Source: Hygrocybe punicea (taxonomy: Eukaryota > Basidiomycota > Agaricomycetes > Agaricales > Hygrophoraceae). Taken from it: 64,000 bases of DNA. The stretch lies in contig OY744470.1 of assembly GCA_963556145.1 (NCBI GenBank), positions 744,001-808,000 of the forward strand. The letters run 5' to 3'. Numbering within the stretch: the first letter of the stretch is position 1; each line of letters opens with the position of its first letter. Below, piece by piece: positions 26,330 through 57,369 of this stretch. A program made the translations under genes and the position numbers. Below the pieces are notes generated by a model that saw nothing but the letters and a program-made list of their open reading frames with translations, was not told the DNA's origin and ran no database searches.

Positions 26330-26334
26330 GGTCA

Positions 26335-27397: not shown

Positions 27398-27864
27398 GCA
27401 CAGGCCCTCACAACATCATCCAGCATGTTTTCGGCTTGGGACAATGGGCAGTTCTCACCGATCACGCCTCAACTCCGGAACCGGTACACGATGCCATTGA
27501 CAAGTTGCGATAGTACAAACACAAAAAATACGTAACGACAGTTACGACAAGGAGAGTAGGACGACGAGGGCGACAGAGCGAGATCGTGCGAGTGGTTAAT
27601 GCTGCGGCGCGGGCTCTAGAACGAACTTACCAGCTGCTGTCGAACTGCCTGACGCTTTCGAACTGCTCGATGCTTTCGCGCTGCCCGACGCTTTCGCGCC
27701 CTTACGCGCTGCACAGGGTCAATCATATCACCGAATGTCCGTCGACTGACTGCGTCTCACGTACCCATGCCTGATATCCTCGTCCCCCTGCGTGACGGCG
27801 CTTTACCGCGCGACCGACGGCTGTCCCCAACATCCACGTCTTCCTCAACTCGACTCACTGGGAC

Positions 27865-31933: not shown

Positions 31934-32107
31934 CGGGTGCGCGTTGTGAGTGGGAAAGTTTGTGGCTTATGCACTGACTTGATAGTTCACACGTCGGAGC
32001 TGGATTCGGAGCAGTGTGCCGGACACGTGTAGGCCTCGTGTCATGGTTATTTTAATGCTGGATCTGTCTTTGTGTCATCGGTTGGATTGTCCCGAGTGTG
32101 TTGTATC

Positions 32108-32372
32108 CGCGGAGCGAGCACAATCGATCCTGCATCGGGCATATCTGATGCGCGGATCGAGCACACTCGATCCGCGCATCGATCATATCTGGTCCATCAT
32201 TTGAGTATCTCGAGTGCGCGGATCGAGCACACTCGATCCGCGCACCGATCATATCTGGTTCATCGTTTGAGTATCTCGAGTGCGCGGATCGAGTGTGCAT
32301 CGTGTCTACTTGGTCCGCGAAGCGAACATACTCGATCCGCGCACTAGAGATGCTCAAATGACGGACCAGATA
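32108..32372. repeat. Palindromes and long hairpin upstream of the ParB-like gene
   Basis: An imperfect copy at about 32108-32133, two with CACA centres and 12-nt arms (32150-32177, 32216-32243), then a hairpin of about 45-nt arms (32246-32372) whose arms are CATATCTGG...GATCGAGT and its reverse complement. The segment ATCATATCTGGT...ATCTCGAGTGCGCGG is also duplicated in tandem. No coding ORF is convincing between 31934 and 32736. Confidence 0.88.
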
Positions 32373-32736
32373 TGCTCGCTCCGCGGACTAAGTGTGTTCA
32401 TTGTGCGGTGCATGTGTGCTCCATCGACGCGTACATAGGTGACTCTTCATGTAACCATTTCACTACTACTTTAGCTTCATGCGATTCGATACATAAACGC
32501 CAGATCTGCTGAGTCTTGACTATCTCCTCTCACGTTATCACGCGGACCCAGCAGGCATACAATTCAATAGACTCATAGGCACGCCAACAAGGCATCCTCA
32601 ACAGACGCACCATATGCCATACCATTTCGATCCATTGCAGGCATCTGGATACTCACTGGTTGGGGGTACAAATCTACATCAATGGCTAGTCCGCCACTAG
32701 CCTACCCCAACTTATTTAGAAAACAGTATATATAAT

Positions 32737-32799
32737 CCTTGTCCTTGTCCTGGTCCTTGTCCCGGATCCCGCCCCGGGATCCGAGGAGTAGATTATTAG
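32737..32799 (+). mobile_element. Third Helitron-like 3' terminus
   Basis: A short CCTTGTCC array (32737-32763), stem GGATCCCG (32764-32771), loop CCC, stem CGGGATCC (32775-32782) and tail GAGGAGTAGATTATTAG. It is joined directly to the interior of an R1 repeat (TTATGAGATTG), which defines the element edge within the ambiguous AG. Its left end is unknown; the ParB-like gene island lies immediately to the left. Confidence 0.7.
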
Positions 32800-33123
32800 T
32801 TATGAGATTGATTTAGAAGTGAGCCCTGAAAGGAGATTCAGAACCCATATAAGACATGAAAACATGACCAAACAACTTGATTATGAATCATAATTGATGC
32901 CATCATCACATGATAATTAGAAGCCAAACTCGGACTAATTTTCCACATTAACACAGATTCCCCCCCCAACTTGCATGGACTCTTTCTCCATAACCGGTCC
33001 GCCGATTTCTTAGAAAATTGGTACAGAGCACCTCAGTAGTGTGCCCAATGGATTGCCAACTTAAATCTGCAACAATTTCATGTCCCAGAATTGTATATAT
33101 ATACATAGAAGACCGGTATAATG
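32800..33123 (+). repeat. Repeat R1, copy b (5' part missing)
   Basis: Nearly identical to 36972-37294. AACCGGTCCGCC at 32992, TATATATATACATAG from about 33094. It starts at the Helitron-like terminus and lacks the first roughly 20 bp. Confidence 0.85.
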
Positions 33124-35339
33124 ACCATAAAGCATTGAGGTCCCATATAATTTTGACATGAGTAGCAACAAGTAGAGGATTATATATTAACAAGTAACCG
33201 GAACCAGAACGGCAACTTGGGTTCCGATTACTTCGGTAACACATCGGAATCGGATCCAGATCCGGTCATGATCACTATTGGTGAGTCACAGATGTCCTCA
33301 ACTTTGAGGGTCCACTCAATGTTCTTCTTGACTGACTTCAATATGTTTCAAGGCGTTCTGTTGCTCATGCATGGGAAGGATACCCCTGATGTAGACAAGG
33401 CTATGGGCCTCTAAAAAGAACATCAAGAGATCTTCAATGACACCAACGTGGATAGTTTTAAATCACTTCATTACTACCCAGATATCGGATTCCATCTACT
33501 GCTGCTACTTAAAACAGACAATTATCAGATCACCAATATGCTGATCACCCACTCTGGATCTCGATTGACAAGGGGTCTTTCGGATTCATTCCTTTTCTTG
33601 CATCCCCTTTGATTGTACTATGCAATATGAAGAAGCATACTATAGCACTGAATGTTCCTGTATATATGGCAATATCATCTGGTTTGAGCAGTGAGGAAAT
33701 TTAGACAATTGGACAGTTGATGTCAACTCTGAACTGGTGTTAATCGGAACGAGTTCCTTTGGGTGCTGATGCTCCATTCAAGCACATGGGCTTTTTTTTT
33801 TTTTTTTTTTTTTCCGATTCTATGTCCATTGGGGCGGAACCTATGTAGGACCTACATGTGGGCGAGTAGGAATAATTATCTAAATAAGGGACCTTCCCTT
33901 TCTGCGTCTCCGACTAGCAAGTGCAATTCCGACGAGTGACCCCCCCGGAAACCCAATGCACACGGGCTTGATTAGAGTGTTGGACTCCATCAAAAGTTGT
34001 TCCATTACATGGTGGTTAACAGAGAAGATCAATGTGAAGTATCTAACTAAATATAAATATAGATTGACTTGTTATTTGAGCATGAGGGATGAGAACATTG
34101 GCATTATATCGGAACCGGTTCCTTTGTTGGGTGCCGATGCTCAATCCAAGCACACATGCTCAATTTGAGTGTTAGAGTTAGTCGGGTCTCATTCGCTGAT
34201 CCCGCAATTAATGTTTCCACTCAACTGGAAATTCATGATATAACTTGGCATGCTCATGATGTACATATACAATGGCGATGTGTGGTAATTTCCCAAATAC
34301 TGGACGAAAACTCTCTTTGCAATTAATGCTGTGTATACACCAAATCAGGTTTCTTCTTCTGGATAAAATACAATGCTTGTACTGCAGACACTCAGCCTTG
34401 GACATTCAGTAGGATCAGTGCTCACCTCCAGTACCTTCCCATCCATCCCCCAACCGGTTTTGGGTGTGCTGACTGCATCAGTCCTGCCCGTTTAATATTG
34501 TATATTAGGCTGGAATCACATCTTGTATCGGAACAACTTCCGATGGTTGGAATTCACAAGTCCAACATTTTGTCTTCATTTATTTCATATCTAATTCTAG
34601 CTGAAGTTGGCTTGTAAGTGAATTCAGTCAGCATTAATCATGAAGCTTACTGAAGCTGGAGCCAGCACAGCACTCGAAAGATGGCTGCAGAGAATTTTTT
34701 GTCTCTCTCATAGTTGTGTACATATCTGTCACAAATTTTAATTGGGCTAACGTTCTGCAAATTTATTCATGCAAAACGGTTCATGTACTTCAGCCTCAGT
34801 CAAATATATTGATCTCATACAGAGCAATGAAAAAACTAATTTTGACCAATAGTAATGAGATAGATAGACATGGTTGGAATCCTTCACAAAATGGTTCCAT
34901 ACAGTATCGGAACCATAGAACCGTAACCGGAGCCGTATCCGGAACCACATTGAAATGTTACTTGCTATTTGGCCTGCTGCTGGTTGAGGTTTGAACCTTG
35001 CATCTGTGCCCTAACCACTCTCACGTCCCTAGCAACTGACATAATCTCACTGTGCATGAAAATGCTAATAGCAGTGTCAAGGTAGCCTCACCTCAAATAT
35101 TATGGCGACTATGAGGTGTCTGATGAATAAGCATATATCTAAGCTTACCAGGAGTGTGTTATTAAAGATTCAGACGTCAAAGATCATGATGGGCACAGAT
35201 AACAAGGTCAGATTGTACACAAGATATTGGTATTTTGTTGGCATGCAAGTATATGCATTCCTGCCGCCCCGCCACCCATACTGCCCAATTCTATTCCACA
35301 CCCTCATTCCCCATTCCCCAGGGAATATCGTTGGGTGCA
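33124..35339. other. No convincing gene; decayed repeats
   Basis: Diverged fragments sharing CGGAAC-CGGTTCC type palindromic blocks (33740, 34105, 34527, 34910) and the phrase TTGGGTGCCGATGCTC. A T22 tract lies at 33792-33813. Short ORFs have no domain features. Confidence 0.45.
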
Positions 35340-36816: not shown

Positions 36817-36960
36817 CACAACCGCTCTGCCGATTTCGACCAATGGGGCACCGTTGGAAAGCTGTCGACCGGGAGATTCTTTTGGGGCCTTAAATCCCAC
36901 AAAGTTTTGGTGCTCAAAATTTCGACTCTGCACTCACTATCCCTATAAAGTGCAGGATGC
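36817..36960 (+). promoter_or_regulatory. Diverged AACCG-TATA promoter module
   Basis: AACCGCTCTGCCGATTT at 36820, AAAGTTTTGGTGCTCAAAATTT at about 36900 and CCCTATAAAG at 36951. The order matches the module at 26201-26329 (AACCGGTCCGCC, TTTTGGTGCAAATTTT, CATATATAAA). R1 copy c begins at its TATA. Confidence 0.5.
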
Positions 36961-37294
36961 TCACAATACAGTTATGAGATTGATTTAGAAGTGAGCCCTG
37001 AAAGGAGATTCAGAACCCATATAAGACATGAAAACATGACCAAACAACTTGATTATGAATCATAATTGATGCCATCATCACATGATAATTAGAAGCCAAA
37101 CTCGGACTAATTTCCCACATTAACACAGATTCCCCCCCCAACTTGCATGGACTCTTTCTCCATAACCGGTCCGCCGATTTCTTAGAAAATTGGTACAGAG
37201 CACCTCAGTAGTGTGCCCAATGGATTGCCAACTTAAATCTGCAACAATTTCATGTCCCAGAATTGTATATATATACATAGAAGACCGGTATAAT
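36953..37294 (+). repeat. Repeat R1, copy c (complete)
   Basis: Runs from TATAAAGTGCAGG to GGTATAATG. AACCGGTCCGCC at 37164 and TATATATATACATAG at about 37265. It is placed upstream of module C. Confidence 0.85.
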
Positions 37295-37600
37295 GTAGTT
37301 CGGTGCTGACTAAGCAGGTCGCTGTCTCGCACATGGCCAGGGTGACAACAGGGCGACCGGGTGGCTGCAGGGTGAACCGGTGCGTGTACCTGTTTGCTTG
37401 GCTGGAGAATCTTGACCGTGGACCCTGAAAACCCCCCGGCGAATGTCGTTCGGTGCTGACTAAGCAAGTTCCCGTCTCAGAAATGGCCAGGGTGACCGCA
37501 GGGTGACTGTGCCGTGACTGGGTGAACCGCTGCGCGTGCATGTTTGCTTGGCTGGCGAGAATCGACCGTGGACCCTGAAAACCCCCAGCCACCATCACCC
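37295..37600. repeat. Two tandem copies of a roughly 150-bp unit
   Basis: TTCGGTGCTGACTAAGCA at about 37298 and 37449, each followed by ATGGCCAGGGTGAC, TGTTTGCTTGGCTGG and CGTGGACCCTGAAAACCCCC. It sits between R1 and the TATAAAT box (37627) of the next gene. Confidence 0.85.
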
Positions 37601-37678
37601 TGACCTTCCCACGCCTCCAGGTTCCTTATAAATCCCAGTTCTCTGCCAGGGTAACCAGGGTGGATATTCCTGTGTTGA

Positions 37679-39079
37679 ATGGAATCGGAATCTTAGTAGT
37701 CATCGAACTGGTAGGTTGTGCAATCAGCAATGCTTCGTTATCCTCATTGGTTGTTACAGTCTGGACTCACCGTTGACTGAGCTTGAAATAGTGGTTCATA
37801 ATTCTGTGACATCGTCAGACAATGATGAAATGTAAGCTTGGGTATTGTGTTGAAGCTTCCTCTGTCATAATCATTTTTTCAAGTGATCAATCTAATTTAA
37901 TCCAAGCAAATGATGACTTGGAAGATTTGTGGTCATATGATGACGATCATAACCCTTTAAGGTAAGTAAGTGTACTTGCAAAATTTGGACTCTGGAGAGC
38001 TTACTTGTGTTGTTTGATTTTTGTGATTTTATGATAACAGTAAGGATTATTTGCAGACAGCTGTTGTGGGGCCAATTCCAGGTGCTATAAATACGTTTCA
38101 CATGAGATAACTAATCTAAATATGTCTTACTGGGCTGAATATAGATGCTACAGAAAGGTTGGAGGTTGAGGTAACCAGCAAGAAGAGGACGGTGTATGAA
38201 GACTGGTATGTGGATCTTTGATCGCTGTTAAACTTATTCCAAAACATGCCTCAGGACTCCTCCGTATGTGCCTCAAGATTTATCAGAGTGTGTTATATTT
38301 TTCACTTGGAGCATAAACATTTCATCATTGGTTTGGTCTGTAATTTCAGGGATTCCTCACCAGCCGTTGCAGTGGGGAGGGTTAGTGCATCTTCCTCGGA
38401 AGAAGAAACTTTAATGGCCAGTTTTCAACGAAAAGAAGCTCATGTTGTGTCTTCTTCTGACGAGGAAGATACCTTGTTTGCCAAGTGGAAGAAACAGCAC
38501 AAATCTGCCCCAATCGGAACCCCTAAATCTGGTGGGAAGAAGAAGACTTACACCTTGAAAACTGCCATCGTAGTCAGTCCCAGGAAGGGAGATCGCGCTA
38601 AATCTGCTGGAATTGACACGAGCAAAACATCCACCCATCAACAACAAGAAGCTTCAATTGTTTTCCTGGATGGTTTGGCCCATTCATTGGAAAGATTGGC
38701 AAACTTGACTAAAGATAATGGATCTCGTGGTGTAAGCCCTCATTTGTTCAATTCCTCTTGTGAATTATTTTTATCAGGTTGGATTGTTTCTAGAAGACAA
38801 TGGATGAGTTACTGTCATTTTTTGAGACTTGGAATGCATTGTGGGCTAGCCATGAACGCGACTGTTTGGATAAAATCAAGTCCATCAGGGCTGATTCCAA
38901 AACAAAGGTAATGAAACTTCTTTTCATCAGAATCACTGCTGAAACTCCTTGGATAGAAATCTGTCGGCAAAGCCTTTTTGAAGAAAATAGTGCCTTGGTT
39001 GAAGGAACATGGTAATGATGATCAGAAATTGATGCAAGGGGTAATCTCTATGGCCTTGGCATTCACGGGCAACATGTAG
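37679..39079 (+). CDS. Module copy C: small acidic/basic protein, unknown
   Basis: About eight exons with clean GT-AG borders, with a TATAAAT box at 37627 some 50 nt before the start. The predicted product begins MESESYLDSPLTELEIVVHN, then NLIQANDDLEDLWSYDDD, RLEVEVTSKKRTVYEDW, a Ser/Glu-rich stretch (ASSSEEETLMASF, SSSDEEDTLFAKWKKQ), a Lys-rich patch (KSGGKKKTYTLK), a helix (VFLDGLAHSLERLANL) and a C-terminal helical segment (MDELLSFFETWNALWASHE, VGKAFLKKIVPWLKEHG), ending at 39077-39079. It has CK2-like acidic Ser clusters and a probable nuclear signal. No relative was found beside copies A or D. It runs in the same direction as the rest of module C. Function unknown. Confidence 0.55.
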
Positions 39080-39555
39080 ATAATGGTTAGACCTGGATAT
39101 GTGTTAGAATCATATTGTTTGCTCTCATATATACTCAGGCTTGGATGTTGCTAGCTTATATTTTCTGGCAACTAAACTCAGACTGGGGTTTGGTCGGGTT
39201 TTTTTCTAATAGTGTTCTGACCACTTTTACTCACCACATCGCTGCATGACTATAATCTCACCACAAAGGAAGAGGTTAAGCTAAAAAGCTAAAAAGCCAG
39301 CTAACTCCCAAAACCCTAACTTGAAATGTAACTGGATTGCTGCATGACTGGCCATAATACAAGTAAGACACATATCCCCATAAGCTAACCAAAGACCAGC
39401 TAACTCCCAAAATCCTAACCAACCTGGCAATTGTTTGCTCACATGATTTCGTTTGGCTGACTAACCCAGCTCACTCTCACTCTCTTCACCTCATGTCAGC
39501 TCTATGCGGTTTTGGTATTTGACGCTCATCTGATGCAACTCTCCATGATTATTAG
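39080..39555. other. Intergenic, short duplication
   Basis: CCAGCTAACTCCCAAAA(A/T)CCTAAC occurs twice (about 39296 and 39402). No gene is seen. Confidence 0.4.
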
Positions 39556-40801
39556 ATGGCTTCATCCCGGAACTTGATCAGACAAGAACTCAAACCCAAT
39601 AATTCCAAGTTTGGAAAATTGGCCACCTACGAGTCTCTGAAAAGTAGGTTGGTTGTCTGAACTTACCTGGGCATTGACCCTTGGACTTTCTTTGTCTATA
39701 GTCATGGGTAACTCGGAGGATGGTTTGGTGGAATTCTTTCGTGGGGACCAGTAAGGTCTTGCTTTTGCTTCTTCCTCATCTAACCTCTCTTTGCGGTTAG
39801 TGTCATGGTTGTCCCTCATGAAGAAGACTTGGGTGAATTGGATAATGATGGTTTTTTGGCCAACCCGGATAATTATTATCATGCAACCATTGTGGACATT
39901 CGAGGAAACTTGGACAAATCAGGATCGGTCTGTTTTCATTCTCTAAAACTTTCAACTGTCCAATCTTGGAGTAGATTTGGATCAAGATAAGTTGGTTTTA
40001 TACTGCAGACCATATTAGGTCTGTCTTCCCCACAGAGAGTGCTCATCTGTGAGTGGTTATTGCATTGTACCCTTCTCAAATAGTGCTTCATGGGTAGCAG
40101 GCCATTGGACAAAATGGGTTCAAATGAGTTGGTGGCTTCCAATCACGAGGACATTATTGATGCTGCTTGTATTGAATGTAAGTCTTTGACTTCTCTCAAA
40201 CATCAACCAGCAAGTTGAGCTTGTCGGACAGCGCCCTCTTCCTTGCTACACTTCGATGACACTTTGTGTCTGCATTCCGACATCCCAACTGATTCCTATT
40301 ATTCACGTTGGACTCTCAACGTCAAATCCATGACATTCACAGTGCGGTTAAATCATCTTCTCCTGATATTTCTGTGCTGATTTGACTTATTTTCAGAAGC
40401 TCAAAACGTCCTGTGTCATAGGCTGTCATGGTTTGTATGCGCCAGAAAGTGACATTCAGCGTTGGTGTTCCACTTGTCAGACATGGTTTCACACAGAGTG
40501 TATGGAGGTCCAACAGGAGGAACCTACATTCGAAATAACAGGCCTAAAATCTCCGCCTGCCGGTGTTGATGAAGATCTCCTAACCATTGCAATTAAACCA
40601 ATAGAGCGGGGACTTCTTTCAATTCATGGGTTGGTCGGCAATGGCGAACAGCAATTGTTTTCCAGATGGTTGTTATCCGAGGCCAATAAAGGGGAGAAGA
40701 ACTGTTCTCTGCAAAATCTCAGCAAAAAGTATGTGAGGAGAGTTATGGGTGATAATCCTGTGTATTATGAATGTCCTTATTGCACACGTAGTTGGATTTA
40801 G
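39556..40801 (+). CDS. Module copy C: BAH-PHD chromatin reader
   Basis: Exons read in order: MASSRNLIRQELKP; NSEDGLVEFFRGD; HVMVVPHEEDLGELDND with NYYHATIVDIRGNL; IWIKISWFYTADHIRSVF; GSNELVASNHEDIIDAACIE; LHFDDTLCLHSD with YYSRWTLNV; then the PHD exon (about 40397-40801). BAH hallmarks are the FFRGDHVMVV strand, WIKISWFY and ELVASNHEDI. The finger is CVIGC, WCSTCQTWFHTEC, then CPYC near the end (C4HC3-like). Architecture matches H3 methyl-lysine readers (EBS/SHL, EPR-1). In contrast to copies A and D, this gene lies head-to-tail with the Ulp1/large-protein gene, 85 bp upstream, so it does not share a divergent promoter. Confidence 0.75.
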
Positions 40802-40886
40802 TCATTTCCCTGCTCACCTTACGTGATGCCTCGTGTAGGTTGCGGGTTGTGCCTGTATTACGTATTGTATCTTGCTTTCCGTCATC

Positions 40887-43800
40887 ATGTCTGACTCTTC
40901 GACTTCATCGGATTCCAAATTTTCTGATGACCTGCTCTCCGTAGCAAAAGAATTTCAAGGAAAGCTGGACTTGATCGCCTCTCGAGTCTCCTCCTCATCA
41001 TCTTCTTCTGATCCTATGGACTCATTGTCTGTCAATCCCACATGGAAATCCATCCTGACCTCCTCTCAGGCCTCTCAGTTGACTTCTAAGCAACTGCAAT
41101 CAGCGTTTGATGTTTTAGCTGGGTTGCCTTCTCAAAATTTCGCCTCCTCTTCCTCCAATGAATCCACACACTCGGACACTTCCGATGGTTATCAGCCGTC
41201 TGGTGACATTGTGCCTTTGCAACTTGAAGACTGGAATATCAATCCCTCCACATCTAATGCTGGTGAATCTCAGAATGAACATGGGCCTGATAACAATGAT
41301 CAGCATGACAAAGGTGGGCTTCAACAATCCCATAGCTTAGCTTTCAGCCTCATTTATCTTTATCTTTATTTCAAGACCTGATTCTTTGTAATCCTATGGT
41401 GTGGAGTGTTCCTCTGTTGGAGATTCAAACTTTGTGCATTGGAAAGTGGTTGGATCAAACCATAATCAACTTTTATCTCCTTCACCATTGGCTCCACAAC
41501 CGAGATGATGCCCTCTTTTACCTGGTGAACTTGGAATTGACTCTGAATTCGAGAATTATGCCAAATCAGATGCAATTGGATTCTTATGAATCTTATACTG
41601 GTCGACTTCGCCCATTTCCTCCACGTCCTGTGATCGCAGTTATAGGTCATTCTCATCATTTTTTTGTCGCCATCTTCGATTACACTGCAATGATGGCCTA
41701 TGTTCTGGGTTCGAGAATCTCTCACTCAGGTTATTATCATATCGACTTTCCCTGGCATGATTGGAATGGTCCACGGTTGTGGAATTTCTTGGCTGCTCTT
41801 CATGGTTGGCAAGCTGGAGACATAAATGAAGTCGAGGTGGTAGCCAGACAATGGCGTCAGGTCTGTCTTGTGCTCAAAATTCAGTTGATCTTTCTTTACA
41901 CTTCTCTTTTCAGAATGGATTGGATTGTGGTCCGATAACTGTCTCGGTGATTTTAGCTCTCTTGTCCAGAGGGTTGGAATTCGATGATTCCGGTCACATT
42001 CTCTGTCCCTCCATTCCTTGCGCTCATCTCCAGAGGCAGCATATGTTTGAGGTTATAGTGGAACAAACATTTATTTGCTTCACCACCTGGAAAGCCATGA
42101 AAGAGTCCCATCCCATTGCTTGGGTTACTGAACCCATCCAAGCTTCCGTGGATATGCTGGAGTCTGGTCAAGAATGGCTGACCAAAATCAGCAGAATGTC
42201 AAAACAATTTAAGAAGGCCCAATCCCATTGCCCAGATTGCAAACGAAGTAGAACCATTATGGCGGCCAAGATCAAATCCTCGTCTAACCCACATTCAAGT
42301 TCCAATGATAGCCAGAGTGGCAATGAGCCGGAGAGCGAGGACCAGGAGAGCAGTGAGTAACATTCTTGTGTTTCTGATGAGTATTCCTTTTACCTTGGCG
42401 CTATCTGCAGGACAACAAAAATTCCCTGCTCATCTCAAGAATAATACATTCATGAAAGGGGCTCGAAACAGAGCATTCTTGGTGCCTCGTAGGTTGAAAG
42501 CCACCGACAACACAATTCCCTTGCCACCCCAACGTTTCATCCCTCTTCCTTCTAATTCCAATTTTGATGAGTATTTCCTGGGGCCTACCTTGGAAGACAA
42601 TGCGACGTATCCAAAATATCTTGACAATTTCCCAACCAATCCTTTTGCCATGCCCACCATCCGTTCATCATGGGAACATTACAAAGACTATGGTTACAGG
42701 TTGGAACCCAGTTTCGCCCTCATGTTCAATAATGTCGACCCCATCCTCGTCCAAGAACATCTCCTGCCTGTCGGGTCATCACTCACAGGGGAAAGCACCT
42801 CCGATCACATCACCGGTGATTATTCTCTGGCAAGACGTGGTCACGAGGACATCAATGTCGATGTTAACGATATCGTGACTATGGGAATGGAAGACATGTT
42901 GTCTCATGCTGGTAGAGAAAACTCCATAGAGAGTTTCAATGCCTTTGTTTGCGGTCGATCTTCTTATGGCCATTATATCCACCTATCTCTCGAGGAAGAC
43001 AAAGTTCATTTGGAGGAAGATGAAATAACCTCGTGTTTCGACATCGATAGCATGATCTGGGTCACTCACAAACTCCATTTTCTTCAAGCCATCAAGATGT
43101 TCGTGTTGCCATACGAAAGGAGGGAAGCTCCTATCCACAGAAACAATCACGTTTATGTGGACATCCTTCTTCCTCGTTCAGAGCTCGACAAGGACAGCGG
43201 TGGTCGATCAGAGTGGCTATCCAAGTCATTTCCTTTGTCTGGAATACCTCACACCCACTTTGCTCATCTTGGAGATGGTGCAGGAAGCGTGAACATATAT
43301 GTTTTCTTTCCACGGATGATTCACCGGGACGAGTTCAGGGGCTTTCGAGTCAACCGGATTCCTTTCGAAGTGCAATCTTTGTGGTTTACAGAGGTCGTCC
43401 TCCCTTCCATCATTGCCTCCACAGTTCCTGGCTGTTTGGAGTACACAGATTTCACTCTGGATGAGTGGAGATGGAAGGCTTCAGTAAATCATAGATTCGT
43501 CGACACCAAGACCACTCCTGTTCGTGCTTCTGCCCTCGATGATTTGCAGTATTGCATGAAGAAAATCATTATGGAAAATCCTGACAATCTCGATCTCTTC
43601 GGTTCCTTCTTCTTCGTTTGCGACTTTCGAAGCTCCAAAGGCCTTACCGTGGAGGATGACCCCTATCAAGCTTTGATGAGGGAGTACCCCGGAATGGATT
43701 GGGACTATGCTATGGATCGATCCAATGGACAGCTCTTCCTCGACTTTGGGATTTCTTTCCATCCAAATCCCAAAGATGCAACCCCTTTGGTCGGTCTTTG

Positions 43801-45600
43801 GAAGCTGCCCGTTGTGCAAGGTTCATATCAAGCCGCTGGGATGAAGCAGAGCACCATCCATAACACCAACACTCTGGCACAGTACGGTGGCATGCAGGCT
43901 GAAATGCAACAGGAGAGGATGAAGGCAGTCCAGTTTACTTTTCGTTCTTCCTATGGCCTGTACTTTGAGGCCATTCGCCGTCCAGGGTCTAACTCCTACT
44001 TTTGCGAGGACCGTGAGGCTTACTTTGCCTCCCCCACTTTCCTCGACTGTTGCAAAAGATATGGTGGCATGTTCAAGGGTGCCAAAAGAAAGTCATTCGG
44101 GGTTAGAGAAGAAATTCGTGGAAGTGGACTGGCCATCAAGACGGCTTTGATGTCTGCAAAAAGAAAGGCTAGTTTGCTGTGTGTCTCTGGTGGTTTTCTT
44201 CTACATCTGACTTGCAGTATTTTGTGATCCAGGCATTGGATTACTTGCGGTCAGATCCCGTGTTGTGGGTTAAATCCGATCTTTGGTTCACCTTTGTGGG
44301 AAGGAGAATGTTGGAGCTCAAAAACTTCCAACTCAAGTTGTCGAAATCACGTCCCTCCAACTATGGAATCATCACTAGTCTGATCATGCATCTGATCCGG
44401 AACATCATCACCACCCCCATAAACATCTACAGCTATCTTAACGCTGCTCTCATTGACCTCAATTTTGGTCCCTGCATAGAAAGATTTGGAATGTTCTTTC
44501 TGCATGATATAGACATTTCCAGCAACATCTTTCTTCCAGGATTGGAGCAAAACGACGACGACGAGGTGGCCAAGGTGATGAAGCTGGACAAGAGGGCACG
44601 AAAAAAGGCTAGGACAATCAATTTCATCAATTCTGAACCAAATGCTCAGTATCCCATCGGTGACTCGCCTCCCTGGAAGTTGGTGGTTCAAGCTGTTCAA
44701 GACTCACCGGAGACGATGTTGAAGGCTTGGGAATGGAGTGCCATGTATGACCAGCACGCCCAGGCCAATGATCTATTTATCAGAATGACGGTTGATCTCT
44801 GGCTTACCGTGGTGGACGATGCCATGTATGGCCTACCTCCCAAGCCCACCACCCTTCAAGAAGCCATGGAATGTTGGACGGTACAAGCCATACAGGCATC
44901 TTTTCGTAACTGCACGTTCTTGGCTTCAAGCTACAATCTTCGAGGGGCAAAGACCGGACAAAAACACTCTTCGTTTCGCTCGATGCTCTCCATCTTTTTC
45001 CCCGCTCCCGATGCTGGTTTCAATGCCAACTCTGTTTGGCTGCCATTGATAGATAAGGGTTATATTGGGGAATATCATCATCTGTGCAAGACACTTTCCG
45101 AGCGTCGGCTCCTGGAGATTAACACGGGGCTTAGCATCATCTTTGCTCACCTTCAGTGTCTTCCTGTCAGCAAACGATGCCAGGAAGGTGGAAGAAGATG
45201 TGGAACGATATGGAAGACACGCAATGGTTACATTGAGCTGGTCACCAACTCAAGATACTACAAGCTGGCCAGGATTGGGAATGTCACCAGAGAGAAGAAA
45301 CCGGTGAGAACGAGGGTAAAGGCATCCACAGCTGTGATAGCTGCGAAATTGGATCAAGAGCATCGCGGAATCCCATACAAAGTAAGCAGACGTGAATACA
45401 GGGATCGTCAAAAGTCCTGGAAGAAGGCAAATTTCCGCAAGCCTCCAGCAAGAAGACAAGAGGTCCAATCTGAGGAGAGCAGTGTCAGTGAAAGCAACGG
45501 TGATTCCACTGATGACAGCGACGATGGTGGCAGTGGGAGTTCAGAGATTGAGAAGAGTGGTGATACATGTTCAGAGAATGATGAGACAGGTGAAGAGTAG
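40887..45600 (+). CDS. Module copy C: Ulp1-like protease fused to a large unknown domain
   Basis: Exon 1 (MSDSSTSSDSKFSDDLLSVA, Ser-rich) ends near 41315. The Ulp1-like exon reads QTLCIGKWLDQTIINFYLLH, GHSHHFFVAIFDY (His) and WNGPRLWNFLAALHGW. A 53-bp intron (41861-41913) precedes NGLDCGPITVSV (Cys). A CPDC pair closes the domain. A further intron (about 42358-42410) leads to the large domain (PPQRFIPLPSNSNFDEYF, CFDIDSMIWVT, NHVYVDILLPRSELDKDSGG, MDWDYAMDRSNGQLFLDFG, KSFGVREEIRGSGLAIK). An intron ending at about 44217 leads to the C-terminal domain (FGMFFLHDIDIS, YPIGDSPPWK, YKLARIG) and an acidic tail. The Asp expected after the Ulp1 His is replaced (YVLGSR). I infer a mobile-element protein that may remove SUMO-like tags; the large domain is unknown and could be a transposase. 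Confidence 0.78.
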
Positions 45601-45689
45601 TAGTGTCTAGACATTGAGCAGCATGAAAATACTTGTCCTAGAGGCTATTGAACCATTAGATATCAATGGAATCATCTCCAAGACGGTTT

Positions 45690-47025
45690 CATGAATGTAT
45701 TGAGTTACCCCCTGTTATAGCACAGGTTCTTGGCCAGCTAGGAACCTCAAATCACTTGACCTAGGGGTTATTTCACCATGGGTTCTCAATGGAGTCATCT
45801 CCGGGTCCATTTTGTGCATGCATTCTTGAGATATATGAATGTGCTCCTCCTACCCCCTGACAGAGCACATGCTCTGGGCCAGCTAGCAACCCGAGATCAC
45901 TTGTCCAGGGGGCTAGTTGATCATCAGATTTCATTGAAATGATCTCCCAGATACTTTGGTGAATGCATTCTTGAGATACACCAATGTGCTCCTCATACCC
46001 CCTAGCATAGCACATGCTCCTGGCCAGCTAGTGACCTAAAATCCCATGTCTAGGGGGTAAGTTGATCCCCAGATCGCAATGGAATCATCTCCCAGACCAT
46101 TTTATGAATGCATTCTTGAGATATAGGAATGTGCTCCTCCTACCCCCCTGGCATAGCACAGGTTCCTGGAGAGCTAGCAGCCTCAAATCACTTGTTCTGG
46201 GGGCTATTTGATCACCACATTCCATTGAAACAATCTCCCGGACACTTTGGTGAATGCATTCTTGAGATATACCCATGTGCTCCTCATATCCCCCTGACAT
46301 AACACATGTTCCTGGCCAGCTAGCTACCCCAAATGACTTGTCCTGGGGGTTATTTGATCACCACATTCCATTGAAATGATCTCCCACACCCTTTTATGAA
46401 TGCATTCTTGAGATACAGCAATGTGCTCCTCATACCCCCCTGGCATAGCACAGGTTGCTGGCCAGCTAGCAACCTCAAATCACTTGTTCTAGGGGATATT
46501 TTATCATGGGAGTTCAATGGAGTCATCTCCCAGACCCTTTTATGAATGCATTCTTGAGATATGCCCATGTGCTCCTCATACCCCCCTAGTACAGCACATG
46601 TTCCTGGCCAGCTAGGAACCTCTAATCACCTGTTCTGGGGGTTATTTCACAATGGGATTGCAATGGAGTCATCTCCCGGACCCCTTTATGAATGCATTCT
46701 TGAGATATGCCCATGTGCTCCTCATACCCCCCCTGTACAGCACATGTTCCTGGCCAGCTAGGAATCTGAAATCACTTGTTCTGGGGGTTATTTAACCATG
46801 GGAATGCAATGGAGCCATCTCCCAGACCCTTTTATGAATGTATTCTTGAGATACAGGCATGTGCTCCTCATACCCCCCTTGTATAGCACATGTTCCAGGG
46901 CAGCTAGTAACCTCAAATCACTTGTTCTAGGGGCTATTTGATCACCACATTCCAATGAAATGATCTCCCAGACCATTTTGTGAATGCATTCTTGAGATAT
47001 GCCAATGTGCTCCCCATACCCCCTT
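45690..47025. repeat. Satellite of 145-146-bp period (second array)
   Basis: Same units and order as at 24836-26180, with only scattered base changes. It separates the Ulp1/large-protein stop codon (45600) from the promoter module of the TET/JBP gene. Confidence 0.92.
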
Positions 47026-47053
47026 CTACCCCTTGTTGGCACCATAGCTCCAA

Positions 47054-47182
47054 AACCGGTCCGCCAATTTTGTTCAAAATTTGCACAGGACATCTCATGG
47101 GTTATATGATGACTCTAAACCATCCCACCAAGTCAGATTTTGGTGCAAATTTTCCAATGCATTGCTACCCGGCATATATAAA
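47054..47182 (+). promoter_or_regulatory. Promoter module of the TET/JBP gene
   Basis: AACCGGTCCGCCAATTT at 47054, TTTTGGTGCAAATTTTCC at about 47140 and TATATAAA at 47175-47182. The ATG at 47214 lies 32 nt past the box, so the leader must be almost nil. Confidence 0.65.
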
Positions 47183-47213
47183 TATTGGAGAACTGGACGA
47201 ACCTGCTACAATT

Positions 47214-48159
47214 ATGGATAAATTTGGCTCCATTCTTGTCTGGTATCTTCCAGACATCCTGGATCCTAGCAGGACGGTGAGCAAGCTTCTGAGCGAGCTT
47301 TACCCCTCCACATATTAACCCGAACAGGAGGAAACAAACAAGAGCATTGGGTCTATCTCTAGACCTCTATCACAATCACATCTAACTGCTCTCTCCAAGC
47401 ATGAAGAAGGGAAAAGTGTGCAATGGAGGAATCATCCTGATCTCTTTATGGCACCGGCCAATCCACGCTTTCAACCAGGGTCGATTGATTTTTCACCTGC
47501 ATGGTTCGCTCAGGGTAGAGAGGTATCTTCATTGTCCAAACGTCATTTGGGTTAAAGTCTATCAGTTAACATCAACCCCTTGTCAGAGACTGGAAGATCA
47601 ATTGCTGACGTCCACGACACTGCGTGGGAGTGAGCCAGCTACATGGATGACAAGCATGAAGCCGACGGAGATGGTCCTCAACGGCATCACTGCTATAACC
47701 CACCGTGCATTGTATAAAGCCGGTCTCGCTGCGATTGGAGGACTCGTTGACGACAATGAACTGCCAAAAGTTCATGAAAATGCCCTATTATGGCCCTCTG
47801 TGTTCACAGGGATAGCAGTGATCATAAACAGAGTTACCCCACCACACCGAGACACTGGAGGTTGTCCGGAGTGGTATGACTTACTGGCCAGCTGCGGGAC
47901 TCATACCAATGCACGACTTACCATTCCCGAAATTGGTGCCAGTCTTGCATACACCCCTGGGACTGTAGTGGAGATCTGTGGTAAGATTCTCAGTCACAGT
48001 GTGGAGAAATGGGATGGGGGCGAAAGGATATGTGTAGCACACTACATGCGAAACATGGTGCATGACCGACTGGGTATTGATAAACCAGTTTGGAGTCGGC
48101 AGAAGGTTTTCACCCAGCTGATGAATCCATTATTTACATCTGCACAGAATTGGCATTGA
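47214..48159 (+). CDS. TET/JBP-type 2-oxoglutarate/Fe(II) dioxygenase
   Basis: Three exons: MDKFGSILVWYLPDILDPSR (47214-47276); EETNKSIGSISRPLSQ ... PGSIDFSPAWFAQGRE (about 47329-47520); then RLEDQLLTSTTLRGSE to the stop at 48159. About 280 residues. The catalytic core is recognisable: NRVTPPHRDTGG with the HxD iron ligands, WYDLLASCGTH, PEIGASLAYTPGTVVEICG, the distal His in GKILSHSVE, and GGERICVAHYMRNMVHDRLG with the Arg expected to hold 2-oxoglutarate. This matches the agaricomycete TET/JBP family, which oxidises methylated bases in DNA. All key residues are present, so activity is plausible. It uses the promoter module next to the satellite of module C. In agaricomycetes such genes are known to travel with KDZ transposons; here the neighbours are the BAH-PHD/Ulp1 module. 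Confidence 0.8.
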
Positions 48160-48702
48160 TTAGGTAGATTTATGCTTATCCTGATTCTGGTTGTAATTAC
48201 CAATCACGGTGACTTGAAGTATTCGAAACTGAGATGGATTAATTTTTCCCCTCAAATGAGAACTTTTAGTCTACAATATAATCTACCAGAGGTAGTGCTA
48301 ACTTAGTTGTATACAAATTTTGACACCGACTGAGAGCACTACACTAATGTCATGTGATGAAAATTGTCACGGTTGCCAGGCATAACTCACGAAAAGCCTA
48401 ACTCCTTCATCCACATTTCAACAACAAAATTCATGGCTCCTGGGAACCACATGTAATTGATTCCCACACAACTCCCAGGAAGCAGACCTGTGTATTGAAG
48501 AGAAGCAAAAGCAAGTTTGATCTATGCCTACAAATAAGGTTATATTTTCAATCGAAATGTCACTTCTGTATCGAAAGGTTGAGGACATGATGCGTGACAA
48601 ATGTCACACGTGAAAATGCTCTGATGCAATCAAACTTTAAATTGGTGCAGGGAGAAATTGAGATTGGTCAAATAGACGCGAGATGACCACCAACCAATCA
48701 GC
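48160..48702. other. No gene seen
   Basis: AT-rich spacer with only short ORFs. CATCATGTCCTCAACCTTTCG at about 48580 (minus) and similar stretches carry no recognisable signal. Confidence 0.4.
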
Positions 48703-50707
48703 ATGAATTCTTGGCAAGTAACTTCAACTGAAACCGTTTCATTTTCTACCCATTTCGGACTTAGCCGACCAGATCCTCCTCCATCAAGGGCCAAATCCGC
48801 ACAGACAAAAACACTTACACCGGCAGAAAAAATATCAGCAAAAACACTTCGTCAGCTGGAAAATTTGGATCTGGCCAGATGGGAGGTGGAATTACCGTAC
48901 GATTTACAGTGGTCAGAAATGATGTTGTCCAATTATGGGCCCGAGCTGCGAGACCACCCATCTGCCAATTTGTATTGGAATATAGAAGCCATAAAGGATG
49001 AAATCCCAGAGGTCATCACGTCGGAGAACGATACAAGAGCATATGTCGAGAAGTCCGTGATAAGGCCAGCCCTCGTTGCATCCATCTGTCTTTATGAACT
49101 TCGGCAGTCTTTACCGCCCAGCAGATATCCAAAAGGAAATTGGAAAATTGTCGATACCAGCATTGTTGGATCCAGCGGACGGGTAGATGCAGTCATTGTG
49201 AATGTTGCATCGGAGTTAAAGGTTGCTGGTGTAGAATTCAAGACCAACCGTGTATTAACAAGCCGTAGTTCCACATCCCAACAAGTATCGGTGTTGGGTA
49301 TGATCGGCTCTTGGATAACCCCAGGAAAAATTGTCAAGATGCATCCTGATGCAAATGAGGCGGGGAAGGGGGCAGATGATGGCAATGACAGCAGTTCCGG
49401 CCTTATGTTCTACAAAGAATCGTGGAAAAAGAAATTGCAAATGATCATCTTCCAGGTGAACCCTGACAATATGCCCCGCATTTTCCATTCACACATCACA
49501 GTATTGATTATACATTTGTGCACATTTAGGTCTGGCACCAACATCGAGTTCATGGTTTCAAACATGCTATCATTGCATCTGAAGAACAATTCGTGTTGTT
49601 GATCTGCCACGATGAGAAAATCTCTATAACACATGCCTACAGTTGTCGTTCAGAAGATGAGGCTGTTCAGAGGAGAAGCCTTTCGCATATGGCCCATTTC
49701 TTTGCAATGTCCATGCATAGAAAATTGCATACGTCTTCTATGACAAGCCATGATGCTGCGGGTCTTCTCAGCTTGCCTATTGTGTGTAACCAATGTGTTG
49801 TTCATCTGATTTGTTCATTGACAGTGACCCTCTCTACAGTCCCGGATCATACGAAATTCCATCATGGCATATCCTATCATGGCTGGAGGTTGTGTTGGAT
49901 GTCCTTCCCAAATGAGGTATCACACAAACTGCAAAGCCGTCATGTTCACACTGCAATCCATTGCCAGTCCATGGACCCTGCAGACGCCGTCGGGTTTCGT
50001 CGACTTCCACAGTATCATAGCTAGTGGAACCACAGTTCTCTATCGTGGTAACTATGGTAATTTTCCGGTGGTGGGAAAAGTAGACGGTCATGATGAAGAC
50101 TCAGTCGCTAGGGAGTTGCAGGCATACGTAATGCTTCGAAGTCTTCAATACCAAGGAATACCCCTGTGTTATGGGCTCTTTCAGATAATCGGCATTGGGA
50201 AGGTATTGCTGCTCTCTGATTGTGGTGACGCGTTGGACTCCTTTGAGCAATTAACCCCCAGGCAGAGGTATATCTCAACTCTTCGATCCAGTGACACAAA
50301 TCATTGATTCTGTTTGAAAAATGTGCAGACACAAGCTTCTCATCTTAGTTATGGAAATTCACAAGTCAGGAGTCATCCATGGCGACTTGGATGCCCGAAA
50401 TGTGGCCATATCTTACGACGGTGACATCTCGGTCCTTGACTTTGGGCAGTCGGAATGTGGTCATGTCTGTGACGGAGAACATTGTGATGAACTGTTGGAG
50501 CTGTGTCAAGCCCTTGGCATTGGGTTCCCCGGCTCAGTTGATGAATCAACGGACACTCCAGGTGAGACGGTTTCACATCCTGGATGGAGAATGAACAACA
50601 TGATGACACTTAAGTATTTACCAACTCCAGATCCAGGTACCTTCGCTTTGATTTATGCTACCATACACAAAGTCTTGAATTGGTTTGTAAACCTGATATA
50701 CCAGTGA
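48703..50707 (+). CDS. Crinkler-like protein: PD-(D/E)XK nuclease plus kinase domain
   Basis: Exon 1 (48703-49455) begins MNSWQVTSTETVSFSTHFGL. The nuclease region shows SGRVDAVIVN followed by VAGVEFKTNRV (D...E-x-K), the signature of the restriction-endonuclease-like fold; after an intron ending at about 49530 it continues with VWHQHRVHGFKHAIIASEE and ISITHAYSC. The kinase part follows: NYGNFPVVGKVDGHD (Lys), SVARELQAYVMLRSL (Glu), LLLSDCGDALDSF hinge, HKSGVIHGDLDARN (catalytic loop, HGD) and VLDFGQSE (DFG), stop at 50707. Nuclease-plus-kinase without an NTPase is one arrangement of Crinkler/RHS-type eukaryotic effectors. Its targets are unknown; the C-lobe is short. No Crinkler N-terminal domain or secretion signal is present, so action inside the producing cell is possible. 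Confidence 0.65.
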
Positions 50708-52363
50708 TGGTTCAACCCCAGTGAAAAGTCGCAAGGTTTAGAAAGTTTTATGTGGTATAAACACAAATATCATAAATTTGCCATATTTTAAACTAAATCT
50801 GCACTCCTGCTCGATGTTTTTCTTATTAGATAGTGTTGGAATGAATAACATTTCAAGTTGAAAAGAGTTGAAAACATTTAGAAAGTGTAGGTAAAAAGAG
50901 CTGCCGCTCCCCCATTCCCGGCAACCCAAGTTTGGAATCCAGCAAAAATCCAGACCTCAACCCATCGACCCTCCGGGTAAAAATACCAGCCAAGAAGGGT
51001 ACAAGGCTTGTAGGAACACTGCGGTTTGCTCGGGTGCCTGTGTTTCATTGTTGTTTAATTGCAGACCATTGTGAACAGCACTTACGTGTAGCCGACGGGG
51101 GCGGGCACACTTACTAGCACCTGCTATTGTCTTGGATACACATTTGAGTATTTTCTTTTTTGACTGAGGCCCGAGAGGGACTCCACTTTACGCATGTTCC
51201 AAAATGGTGGCGTGCAGCATCGCATTTCTGGGAAATTGTAACTGTGAGAGCCTGGGTGCTGTGCTCAGGCTCGGCTAGTGGTAGTCATCATAATGGTGAT
51301 AGTGGCGGTGGTAGAGGTGGGCAAGCGAGGCAAAGGGAGGGGTGAGGACGAGGGGCAAGGACATGGAAGTAGGAAGTGGAGAGGAATGGAACGAATGAGA
51401 AAATGTAACGTTAAGTCCCAGCCATGACATCATCACAGGCATACAGTGCTTCATCTTCATTCTCGTATTGGATATATCTTGTCTTAGTTACACAAAAAAA
51501 GAGTTCTTTGTGCACCGGACTACAAGAACATAAGTCTCTATTTTTTGGTTAGTTTATTCTCATTTTTAATCGTTGTCTTCTCTCGGAACGATTTTATTAT
51601 TTGCAACCCATTTTAAAAAGACTTCTCATATCATATCCAAATCCTTTTTAAACGTGCGACTTTTCACTGGGGCTGACCCATGACGAATGTGAGATTAGAT
51701 ACCATGTCCTCAGCATCACTGAGTACGGAACAGTATTGATGCCCGGCCCGCTACAATAAAGTAGGTTGCCTAAGCATGAACCAAGGGGGACAAACACATC
51801 CCCCATGATCCTAACCCCCAGAGCCCATTTGGTGGGCGCTCATTGCTGAGGTCCCTCCAGTCGTTGGTTAACTAATACTTTTGCCCGTCATGACAGACAA
51901 GGCATACTCTATTAGTTGTCCAACACTATGGATCATTACCCTGTCACGATGGACGAGGGCAACGATCCGCATCACACCAACCGCTGTCTAGACCGGCAAG
52001 CAGTTGGTGTGAGCAGCAGATGCGTTATCACTCGCCCTGTCACGATGGACAAGGGCAAGCGCCGCCATTCCAATTGCACTGTCGCGATGGACGAGGGCAA
52101 AGAGGAATGAGTTTGAAGACGACAAACATCAGCCTTTTATACATTGCGATGTTTGCCTGTATTTGGTGAGGTCCAATCACGTGTTAGGGTTCGATTCTAA
52201 GTCCTTCAAACCTTGTAATCATTCCAGCTATAAGTTACATTGTGAGTTGGTGCACCATGGCATTAGTCAACGTAGTCTGATCAGTTTTTTCCCCCTAAAC
52301 TTGGAATTTAAGCACCCTTGACTCAACAGTCCATTTACTGACTTTGCCTGTTAGATTTTACTT
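50708..52363. other. Gene-poor spacer with a GATGGACGAGGGCAA repeat
   Basis: Three imperfect copies of CTGTCACGATGGACGAGGGCA lie at about 51942, 52039 and 52078. TTTAGAAAGTTTT-type AT-rich sequence follows the kinase gene. No gene is recognised. Confidence 0.45.
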
Positions 52364-54544
52364 ATGATGTCCACTCTACCGGGTTTCAATTATTCGACAT
52401 CGCGTCTGGCAACTTACCGTGGTTACACTCGAATCCCAATCGTTGATGATAGGTTTGAGTACTATTTGCCCCCCTTCTCAACCTGTAATGGACGCGATGT
52501 CACCATTAATTCAAAACGGTGGGAAATCTGGTCCCCCAATTCCTCTCAGACACCATTTCTCCCAGGAAAAGTCGGCACCCGGTTTACATACTTACCTCAT
52601 GCAAATCGGACCTTACGTCGATTTGATGGCCACCTCGGTCGATTTGATCCTACTGTCGCTCCCCAGTATTACACCGCATCATACCCGTGGCACGCCTTTA
52701 TCCCACGGCCAACGTCACCACTGACGGTGGAATTTGAACCGCTTCATCGGTATTGGGTTTGCAAAGAAAATCACACAGGTCACCTGGAGGACAGATTTCT
52801 CAATGCGCTCGCGGATCGTTGTCAGGGCGTAGATGCCGCGATATATCGACTGCGAAAAGTACAGAAGGTGCAAAATAGTTGCATTTTCATCAACTATCCC
52901 AAGTACCCCGAGCCGGACGATTTGCTACATATATCAGGCGAGCTATCGTGGGAAGATGCCGTGGATAAAACGATGCAGGTTCAAAGAGGCATCAAGGAGA
53001 AATTGGCCTGGGTTTCCATGGCTCGCAGAATAGAGAGTGCTGATTGGCCCCCTAATCTGGAATCTCTACGCGGGACACCCATCCCACCCGCTAATGAATC
53101 CTTTGTGGGTGTTTGGTTAAATGGCTCGGCATCAGATGAAAAAATGTCACTTTGGCTACTGGTGACCGGAGGAGTGCCAGGCTTCATTGTTCACGAATAC
53201 GTCCCTGACGTCGATTTCCCGCATTCAGAGTCATCGCAGGTCGAAGATCACCGCCGTGCCTCTGCTCTTCCCGATTTCGTTGCAACATCAGAAGTTGCAC
53301 AGCGTGTTGTGCCTGGTCAAAATTATTATGATGCCTGTGCCCGGCGACTAAGACTGGCTTGCACATTGGATTTCGATGATTTGGATGAAGATCGCAGTAT
53401 GCCATCAACCAAACACTCTGGGAATTTGTCTTCGTCATGGAGTCAAGGATGGCACCCGCAGGCTGGTTACATACAGACGAAGAAGAAAACTGATGCTTCC
53501 ATTGGGTATATGGCGCAGCTCTGGCACTGCAGCTTCCTTTCAATGATATAATATCAAAATGCTAACTGAAATGTCTCTTCAGGTTAGCAGCGTCGTCCTA
53601 TATGTCGGCGAATCCTATTTCAGTGGACACTGGTACTTTGCCGCATTTTTCTGAGCCATCCCAACGTGACCCCAAGGCACCCGGCCTTAATCTAATTCAC
53701 CTTTCACCTGAAAGGGAGCCTTGGGTTTGTCCTCCTCCAATTCAAGCTGTGCCAGCTGGAAAGTGGTCTCACTGGATTGAGGACACCGATGAAAATGATG
53801 GATCAATGTATTTGCGTTGGGTCTCAAAAGTGAGCATTGTGTCATCAGCCTGTGGTTTATATATCCACTAATCATGTGTCACAAATGGAATGGACATAAA
53901 AGTCAGCGCCTTTGTTGAAAGAAGCTGAAGTATTCTACTATGATCGCAAGAACCTTCGGATGCTGTACTTCATGGACATACCTGTCTTTCCCGCAGGCAC
54001 AAAACCGAATCCAGATGAATATGGCGTCCCTGCCCCATGCGTTAAGTATTGCCGTCAAACCCAACCACGACTTATCGAGGAATTTCCATCACATTGGATG
54101 TACCACAGCAAGGAGCCCGCAAAGCACGACGTAGGTCGAGTCGCACCATTGCCTTCCGTGGATGATTTGCCTATGAAGAGGAAAGTGATCACTCACGCAC
54201 CCAATGAGGATGTAATCCCACCAACGCCAGGAAGTCAGGTTCCATCTGATGCACTTCATATTGTACGTGACAATGTGAATGAGCCTTGCGGTGCCTCGAT
54301 GAAGAGGAAGAGAGATGGGACTAGAAGCCCGGATCAGAGTGACGATGGGGATGTGAATATAGAGGATGCAGGACCGGTGATGGCTCATCTTCCCCCAGAT
54401 TCGAAGAAGTCACGCGTACAAGGTGTCACTGATCATGATGATCATGACATAGAACACGATCTGGTCATTGCTCATCAGCCAATGGTATCACAACTGTTAT
54501 CGCTGATGTTCACGCTTCCTGACAATTTCTCCACAGGCATCTGA
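52364..54544 (+). CDS. Hypothetical agaricomycete family protein
   Basis: Exon 1 (52364-about 53503) reads MSTLPGFNYSTSRLATYRGY, FEYYLPPFST, WEIWSPNSSQTPFLPG, RFDGHLGRFDPTVAPQY, then VGVWLNGSASDEKMSLWLL and GGVPGFIVHEYVPD. Exon 2 (53582-53829) has LSPEREPWVCPPPIQAV and WSHWIEDTDEND; exon 3 (about 53905-54540) has KEAEVFYYDRKNLRMLYF, EYGVPAPCVKYCR and two basic patches (MKRKVITH, MKRKRDGTR) that look like nuclear signals. The VWLNG...FIVHEY and YYDRK-R-L-F signatures identify a widespread agaricomycete hypothetical family; its function is unknown. It lies in line with the JmjC-like gene; a splice acceptor (TCCACAG, 54537) could join the two, so a fusion is possible. Confidence 0.55.
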
Positions 54545-54563
54545 AGTAGGGAGTAGCCTCCGG

Positions 54564-56915: not shown

Positions 56916-57369
56916 TAATAAATATCATGACATGTATTGTGTTGTTGAAACAATATGCTAGGTTGCCATGTAGGTCTGTCGGGGGTGTCTGAACCTGATG
57001 CAGTTGTATTGTGGACAGCAGCAATGATTATAACCTAAATTTGTTCTCATGTCCTGTGGAGGTGAAGTGACGTACACTACAGGTTGGCAGACAAAGTTTT
57101 ATACCATGCAATTAAGGCAATATTAGCAGTCGGTGGCGCATGCACTTGTATTGCATTTTTCTTCTTGTCAATTTGATTCCAATGATCACATACACTGTAT
57201 GTGAATACTGGGCCAGTATTCGCTGAACTGACATAACATGCACTGGAATGCTGAATGTCTTGGCCTACAGTACAATGCCTGCACTCAGAGGGCTACATTG
57301 GGTGCTTTTGCCATGTTTTCCATACACCAAACCGGTGTCCTGTTGTTTCTGCCAACTGCTCAGACAGGA
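56916..57369. other. No gene seen
   Basis: Spacer between the JmjC-like gene and the inverted-repeat element; short ORFs only. Confidence 0.4.

Follow-up and report, generated by a model that had tools for sequence, protein, structure and literature searches.

A family of large multi-gene units, probably joined by a fixed 3′ end to chromosome ends, in the subtelomeres of Hygrocybe punicea

The stretch of Hygrocybe punicea DNA described here comprises 64,000 nucleotides of contig OY744470.1, positions 744,001 to 808,000—the window, C36:744001-808000 in our contig numbering—and contains copies of several large multi-gene units, among them copy C of the C unit, with which we are mainly concerned. 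The genome spans 92.2 Mb in 42 contigs and is the only one analysed. Copy C (37698..47183; positions without a contig name are those of the window) lies on the plus strand, is 5′-truncated and closes with the exact 3′ end ...GCATATATAA(A). It carries a small acidic protein open reading frame (ORF; 38222..38911), a BAH-PHD gene (39556..40801), a gene for a C48-like (SENP/Ulp1-like) plus core protein (40887..45600) and nine copies of a 146-bp satellite (45708..47023), and is followed by a TET/JBP ORF (47386..48159). In this line-up, a sequence-only reading of the window had seen one mobile cassette. All five components are present on the plus strand, but copy C ends at ~47,182 and the line-up is not one cassette.

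The BAH-PHD gene has GT-AG introns, and its seven exons join in one frame of 306 amino acids (aa). Both domains expected for it are detected by Pfam—BAH with E=0.00097 over nearly the full profile (6-121 of 121) and PHD with E=0.0064—but both remain under the Pfam cut-offs (19.5 bits against 30.8, and 16.9 bits against 24). The match spanning the BAH profile makes a relation to this family likely; Pfam membership is not claimed. For the C48/core gene, whose five exons encode 1,496 aa, the Ulp1 assignment stands in a profile search of PDB sequences and fails in Pfam: the C48-like domain has no Pfam match and the entire spliced protein no Pfam domain (best E 0.88), while a profile of seven C48-like sequences places SENP1, ULP1 and SENP2 at the top of the PDB matches (best E=2.9e-4), with SENP/ULP accounting for 17 of the 18 matches listed at E<=10. 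The N-terminal part of the protein carries a QNGxDCG motif. C48 proteases use a catalytic His-Asp-Gln-Cys set; in the alignment of the C48-like domain His, Gln and Cys are kept and the usual position of the Asp is a Gly, which makes protease activity uncertain.

Relatives of the C48/core protein numbered five in a first search and 77 in a profile search; those named come from Tulasnella, Boletus, Pisolithus and Scleroderma and are all labelled hypothetical or uncharacterized protein. The core was considered as a known transposase or polymerase and rejected as such, with 54 relatives sharing no Pfam domain (at E<=0.1, 11 families turn up, none in more than a single relative). Against the PDB the core shows no relative below E=0.3, and of 32 pattern matches in viral_contigs none encodes a relative. 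Comparison with a diverged copy on contig C1, which bears a stop codon in its core, gives dN/dS values of 0.27 for the core and 0.25 for the PHD exon; with the contig C6 copy the core value is 0.11, and the PHD exon differs at just two places. Hence, these proteins were under selection.

Each of the window's three paralogous units—C, D and IV—contains both a BAH-PHD and a C48/core gene, with identities between units of 37-50% for the core and 21-35% for the PHD. Their arrangement varies. In C both genes share one strand. In unit IV (plus strand, part seen 13748..22171, the start being the place where one comparison ended, with the 3′ end ...GACCGGTATAAT at ~22169) the core gene lies as three ORFs on the minus strand (15263..19832, 15.3-19.8 kb), divergent to a BAH-PHD gene on the plus strand (20636..21635, 20.6-21.6 kb; 21-32% identity). 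Unit D (47177..64000, plus strand) is 5′-truncated at 47177 and continues to C36:810223, where it closes with its exact 3′ end; its BAH-PHD gene, at 59 kb (58864..59906), is encoded by the minus strand and divergent to a core gene on the plus strand that starts at 60.9 kb and extends past the window (60856..64000). All seven D-type PHD matches in the genome are divergent to their own core. Across the genome, 24 of 25 PHD-exon matches have a core match no more than 3 kb away, the exception being C3:214980 at a distance of ~24 kb. This proximity also marks a difference from the histone readers EBS/SHL and EPR-1, which share the order BAH then PHD; a further difference is that both domains here stay below the Pfam cut-off. 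The BAH-PHD and SENP-like/core genes are the only ones common to all three families examined, and, judged by their domain families, mobility or the activity of the units in silenced subtelomeric chromatin most likely depends on them.

The boundaries of the units were derived from a self-comparison of the window together with six further genome regions. For the C unit, ten copies were compared—copy C, copy A of the window and eight others. Nine run to the place matching 47181-47183, and the tenth, on contig C7, breaks earlier, within the satellite. The starts vary: copy C begins at 37698, copy A at the equivalent of 43020, others at the equivalents of 37902 and 37977, and four long copies extend 7-10 kb beyond the 5′ start of copy C. 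Two of these long copies measure 17.0 kb, and two form a 19.2-kb pair (C6:15193-34350 and C36:399765-418952) of 99.35% identity. The units are multi-gene and intron-containing, with ~17-19 kb seen; in the copies compared, DNA alignments of the BAH-PHD gene run on across its introns, and many unit copies are 97-100% identical.

The 3′ end is fixed. Out of 46 candidate C ends 40 were scored and all 40 kept; all close at the same TATAA and fall into 37 flank clusters, which bears out the mobility proposed by the sequence-only reading. For unit IV, 79 candidates yielded 40 scored ends, of which 35 of the 40 listed places were examined, with 34 flank clusters; left out were C20:71072 (contig absent from the table), C2:8548591 (match falling short of the end) and C33:36730, C8:5816161 and C8:114259 (flank sequence lacking). 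The D end ...GGAGCCATAA is found in all five copies compared among the seven with a core gene (those on C21 and C27 were excluded), with four different flanks, C20 and C8 sharing one. A further family, E, shows the end ...GTATATATAA(T) in four places—the window, C7, C8 and C40. The fixed ends hence read TATAA or CATAA in C, D, IV and E, and the 5′ ends are variable in C, D and IV. In C this manifests as a 5′ gradient, in counts that mix protein and DNA searches of differing sensitivity: the 3′ end is found at least 40 times, core loci of at least 75% identity 24 times, the PHD exon ~17 times, the 37.7-38.7 kb segment 14 times and the TET four times. A search with the C 3′ end over a first set of loci revealed no terminal inverted repeats, inspection by eye of four copies whose two ends are established showed no target-site duplication, and the 3′ ends of C copies bear no A-run. 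A Plavaka transposase gene flanks the contig C6 copy; on the flanking side its profile match is limited to positions 1-99 of 325. C and IV have in common a short, weakly matching block AACCGGTCCGCC(A/G)ATTT, located ~120-130 bp ahead of the fixed end (47055-47085 in C and 37150-37185 in IV), a possible shared recognition element for RNA or protein. Near a D-unit 3′ end (L054:1723-2223) lies a ~172-bp hairpin, 91% self-complementary, followed by two TAGGGTTAGGG motifs.

The TET/JBP ORF of the window, N-terminally truncated, confirms its predicted family with Pfam Tet_JBP E=6.7e-17 (61.6 bits against a cut-off of 34.9); HxD..H..R, which we take to be the TET/JBP motif, is intact by eye. It had been assigned to copy C, which stops short of it at 47181-47183. 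Three near-identical copies of this TET, on C39, C20 and C8, have no adjoining C unit, so that C stands beside it in only one of its four copies. Ahead of the position corresponding to 47177, these three have 2.5 kb or more in common—sequence absent from the window except for a 475-bp piece repeated at 51672—and their TET lies 18.2 kb from the D-unit 3′ end, compared with 18.6 kb in the window. The shared upstream sequence and the similar distance assign the window ORF to unit D, whose truncation at 47177 falls inside an upstream TET exon and removed N-terminal coding sequence. Among TET-bearing D copies, the 3′ flanks are of three kinds. The four long C units encode a Tet_JBP gene of their own on the opposite strand (E=2.6e-17, 63 bits), and their four different 3′ flanks show that the unit took this TET along in four or more moves. 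The partnership of BAH-PHD, Ulp1-like protein and TET is not found in the arrangement first proposed; it is found in another form, as long C units carry a different TET and D units this one.

The TETs of C and D are 37-38% identical, and the D type has three closer strays at 74-87% followed by 47 dispersed relatives at 54-64%; on this identity pattern the two families probably acquired their TET/JBP genes separately. The genome holds 122 Tet_JBP matches. Among its listed KDZ transposase matches, an incomplete list, the nearest lies at least 37 kb from each of the eight C- and D-unit TET genes; that TET/JBP here goes without a KDZ transposase, as previously noted, hence holds for the window ORFs tested and the listed genome matches. 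Judged by its domain family, TET/JBP would counter DNA methylation; in the sequence-only reading the module as a whole might recognise silenced chromatin, remove SUMO and edit DNA methylation. At C1:9411941- and C2:8453230-, TET matches lie 29-31 kb upstream of older C-type cores, on the opposite strand as in the long C units.

The units accumulate toward contig ends. By hand, 79 core matches were collapsed to 55 loci, of which 52 lie on 13 large contigs. The distance to a contig end is at most 100 kb for 26 of these, a zone that makes up 2.85% of the sequence, at most 300 kb for 38 and at most 1 Mb for 51. The 5′ end points to the nearer contig end in 27 of 37 C flank clusters (p=0.0076; 22 of 23 among those at least 97% identical, p=5.7e-6) and in 28 of 34 IV clusters (p=2e-4; 20 of 22 within 300 kb). 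In 15 of 80 cases the flank lies inside a unit of the search library, always on the same strand; one circular case was dropped, leaving 14 of 14. Out of 21 contig ends read, four show telomere repeats, a mixture of CCTAAC and CTAAC: those where C6 and C7 end and where C2 and C34 start; canonical TTAGGG x4 was not found in the assembly. The telomere-adjacent repeat directly 5′ of copy C (37293..37699, plus strand) matches two of these ends: it shows 99% identity to a stretch of the C7 end that lies ~100 bp inward of the telomere repeats, and its part 37413-37699 matches, in the same orientation, sequence directly following the telomere repeats at the start of C34. The 5′ junction flank of the long C8 copy, ...CTAACCTAAC, resembles telomere repeat as well.

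We regard it as probable that copy C is a 5′-truncated member of a family of large multi-gene mobile units, joined by their 3′ ends to chromosome ends and subtelomeric—similar to HeT-A and the terminons, but a new family. The fixed end, 3′ relative to the BAH-PHD of C and IV, would join a free chromosome end, with the other end facing the telomere. Erosion or incomplete copying might later remove 5′ parts, and further units might be added outside, giving rise to head-to-tail arrays. Joining would occur where a chromosome ends or is broken, not in its interior, and the copy would be made by a polymerase—acting in trans, or the core protein itself. Pfam shows no transposase or Rep/helicase domain in the unit ORFs tested; additional unit ORFs gave one weak PhaC_N match below the cut-off. 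More tentatively, and with the odds rather against it, the units might represent a new eukaryotic superfamily of multi-gene DNA units, lacking a recognisable reverse transcriptase or transposase and copied onto chromosome ends by the core protein or a recruited host polymerase, in which BAH-PHD, SENP-like and TET/JBP proteins would keep the units active in heterochromatin and of which much of the subtelomeres would be built.

Several observations weigh against attachment at chromosome ends. No reverse transcriptase (RT) was recognised among the ORFs tested from units C, D and IV—which did not include every small ORF—and one further upstream may exist. Telomeric repeats are absent from the C 3′ junctions (45 bases, 40 copies). 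All evidence is drawn from a single genome. The placement test yields p=1.6e-26, a value overstated, as duplication-related copies inflate it. The 97% identity cut for C clusters was picked after the data were seen, clusters below it point outward in only 5 of 14 cases, and within 300 kb the C polarity is 19 of 29 (p=0.14). The nearer contig end serves as a proxy, and for some units the distance to it is 0.4-0.9 Mb. Subtelomeric duplication keeps polarity, and polarity alone gives same-strand joins, so that these lines are not fully independent. Finally, one supporting line is limited in scope: the displaced 5′ half of a truncated unit was not found upstream at the C|D and IV|A junctions or the C8 tandem, which speaks for joining at chromosome ends, but this search covered only the sequence available, with 6.8 kb upstream at C8 and with minisatellites of the window (8.4-14.2 kb) removed by filtering.

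Other routes might produce part of this picture. Copying of the units in trans by a LINE-type RT, with survival mainly in subtelomeres, would account for the fixed 3′ end and the 5′-truncation gradient, and RT genes are many in this genome; the genome-wide list of the best 150 of 594 candidates is not diagnostic for an RT beside the units. This explanation is unlikely, as introns are kept at the DNA level, genes lie on both strands over 17-19 kb, the 3′ ends lack an A-run and, by eye, four copies show no target-site duplications; the polarity and the same-strand joins (14/14) also count against it. One-ended rolling-circle transposition of the Helitron/IS91 type, running from the other strand, with the fixed end as origin and failed termination as the cause of the variable one, also fits one fixed and one variable end and is compatible with retained introns. 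Helitron termini read TC/CTRR; the fixed ends on that strand read TTTATATATGCC, TTATGGCTCC and ATTATACCGG instead, the ORFs tested encode no Rep/helicase, and the mechanism by itself gives no telomere polarity, which makes it quite improbable.

Ordinary subtelomeric exchange—break-induced replication or ectopic recombination spreading non-mobile gene blocks—would explain placement and polarity, and a few flanks are shared (three pairs among 40 for C, one among 35 for IV and one among five for D). It is nevertheless very unlikely, since 40 C copies with 37 different flanks all stop at an identical 3′ base and four families have fixed ends. The cassette proposed at the outset, with BAH-PHD, the Ulp1 protein and the TET at 47.4 kb moving as one module, has the adjoining position of these genes in the window in its favour and is scarcely credible otherwise: nine of ten copies stop before the TET and the tenth breaks earlier, all 40 C 3′ ends stop there, this TET is their flank only in the window, and its three other copies have no C unit alongside.

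Among known elements, the units resemble HeT-A and TART of Drosophila, which are head-to-tail, 5′-truncated and oriented with the 5′ end toward the telomere, HeT-A lacking an RT of its own. These features are shared; the differences are the introns, the genes on both strands, the chromatin genes, the missing 3′ A-run and a host that keeps telomere repeats. To our knowledge, all telomere-attaching elements known encode or borrow a reverse transcriptase. The terminons—giant Penelope-like elements without endonuclease, found at the telomeres of bdelloid rotifers—are described, in the portion of that account used here, as giant multi-ORF units, 5′-truncated and head-to-tail at chromosome ends (PMC6431247), as are the units here; these carry other genes, without RT in the ORFs tested and without telomeric repeats at the C 3′ junctions. 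Arrays, 5′ truncation and 5′ ends toward the telomere are all found, the last more weakly in older C copies (5/14). A 3′ hammerhead ribozyme followed by telomeric repeats, as in terminons, was not seen: Rfam detected no hammerhead in 20500-48500 or L054, the best matches being miRNA-type hairpins below the gathering score, and the C flanks are not telomeric. MoTeRs and FoTeRs are likewise fungal and telomere-associated, but are retrotransposons, of which MoTeRs sit within telomeres, as far as the accounts used here go. Penelope-like elements near telomeres are reported for the chromosome ends of Agaricus bisporus (PMC7473861, in the part used).

Mobile elements with TET/JBP have been described in Agaricomycotina for Kyakuja, Zisupton, EnSpm, Plavaka and Helitron2 (Kojima 2025, PMC12730594, as far as its main text goes). 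The units here similarly place TET/JBP on a mobile element of an agaricomycete, and differ in that the ORFs tested encode no KDZ, Plavaka, EnSpm or Helitron domain; the main text of that article contains no word beginning with BAH, PHD, Ulp1 or C48. At the level of titles and abstracts, no account of these units was found. In anatomy the units resemble telomere-attaching elements; what sets them apart are introns, coding on both strands, genes of the chromatin-reader and SUMO-protease-like kinds and, for two families, TET/JBP. If our explanation is true, they would represent a new way for selfish DNA to build chromosome ends, provide a home for a protein family without annotation and extend the carriage of TET/JBP beyond the DNA transposons covered in PMC12730594. 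Since many copies are 97-100% identical, their activity should be testable.

The window contains further unit pieces, all on the plus strand. Copy A, a 5′-truncated C unit (22168..26329), abuts the 3′ end of unit IV and is followed by a stretch with the exact family E 3′ end ...AAACAGTATATATAAT (26330..32736, its 5′ start being arbitrary). Two 5′-truncated IV fragments with their 3′ ends kept lie at 32798..33124 and 36945..37294. Ahead of the family E end, 28409-31966 shows a GC content of 57-59% and long minus-strand ORFs, two of which were tested and have no Pfam match. An ORF of 1,049 aa at 2050-5196 contains DUF6570 and Helitron_like_N domains, and unit D includes a kinase-like fragment at 50318-50704 (Pfam Pkinase 0.00029, below cut-off). 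At the contig ends themselves, arrays of an 80-bp satellite are found on C6 (C6:1-9018; L032, L033), C1, C3, C8, C40 and C41—~9 kb long and 99.98% identical at C6, with a constant orientation relative to the end wherever seen—and a 58-bp satellite occurs at the end of C36 and the start of C35.

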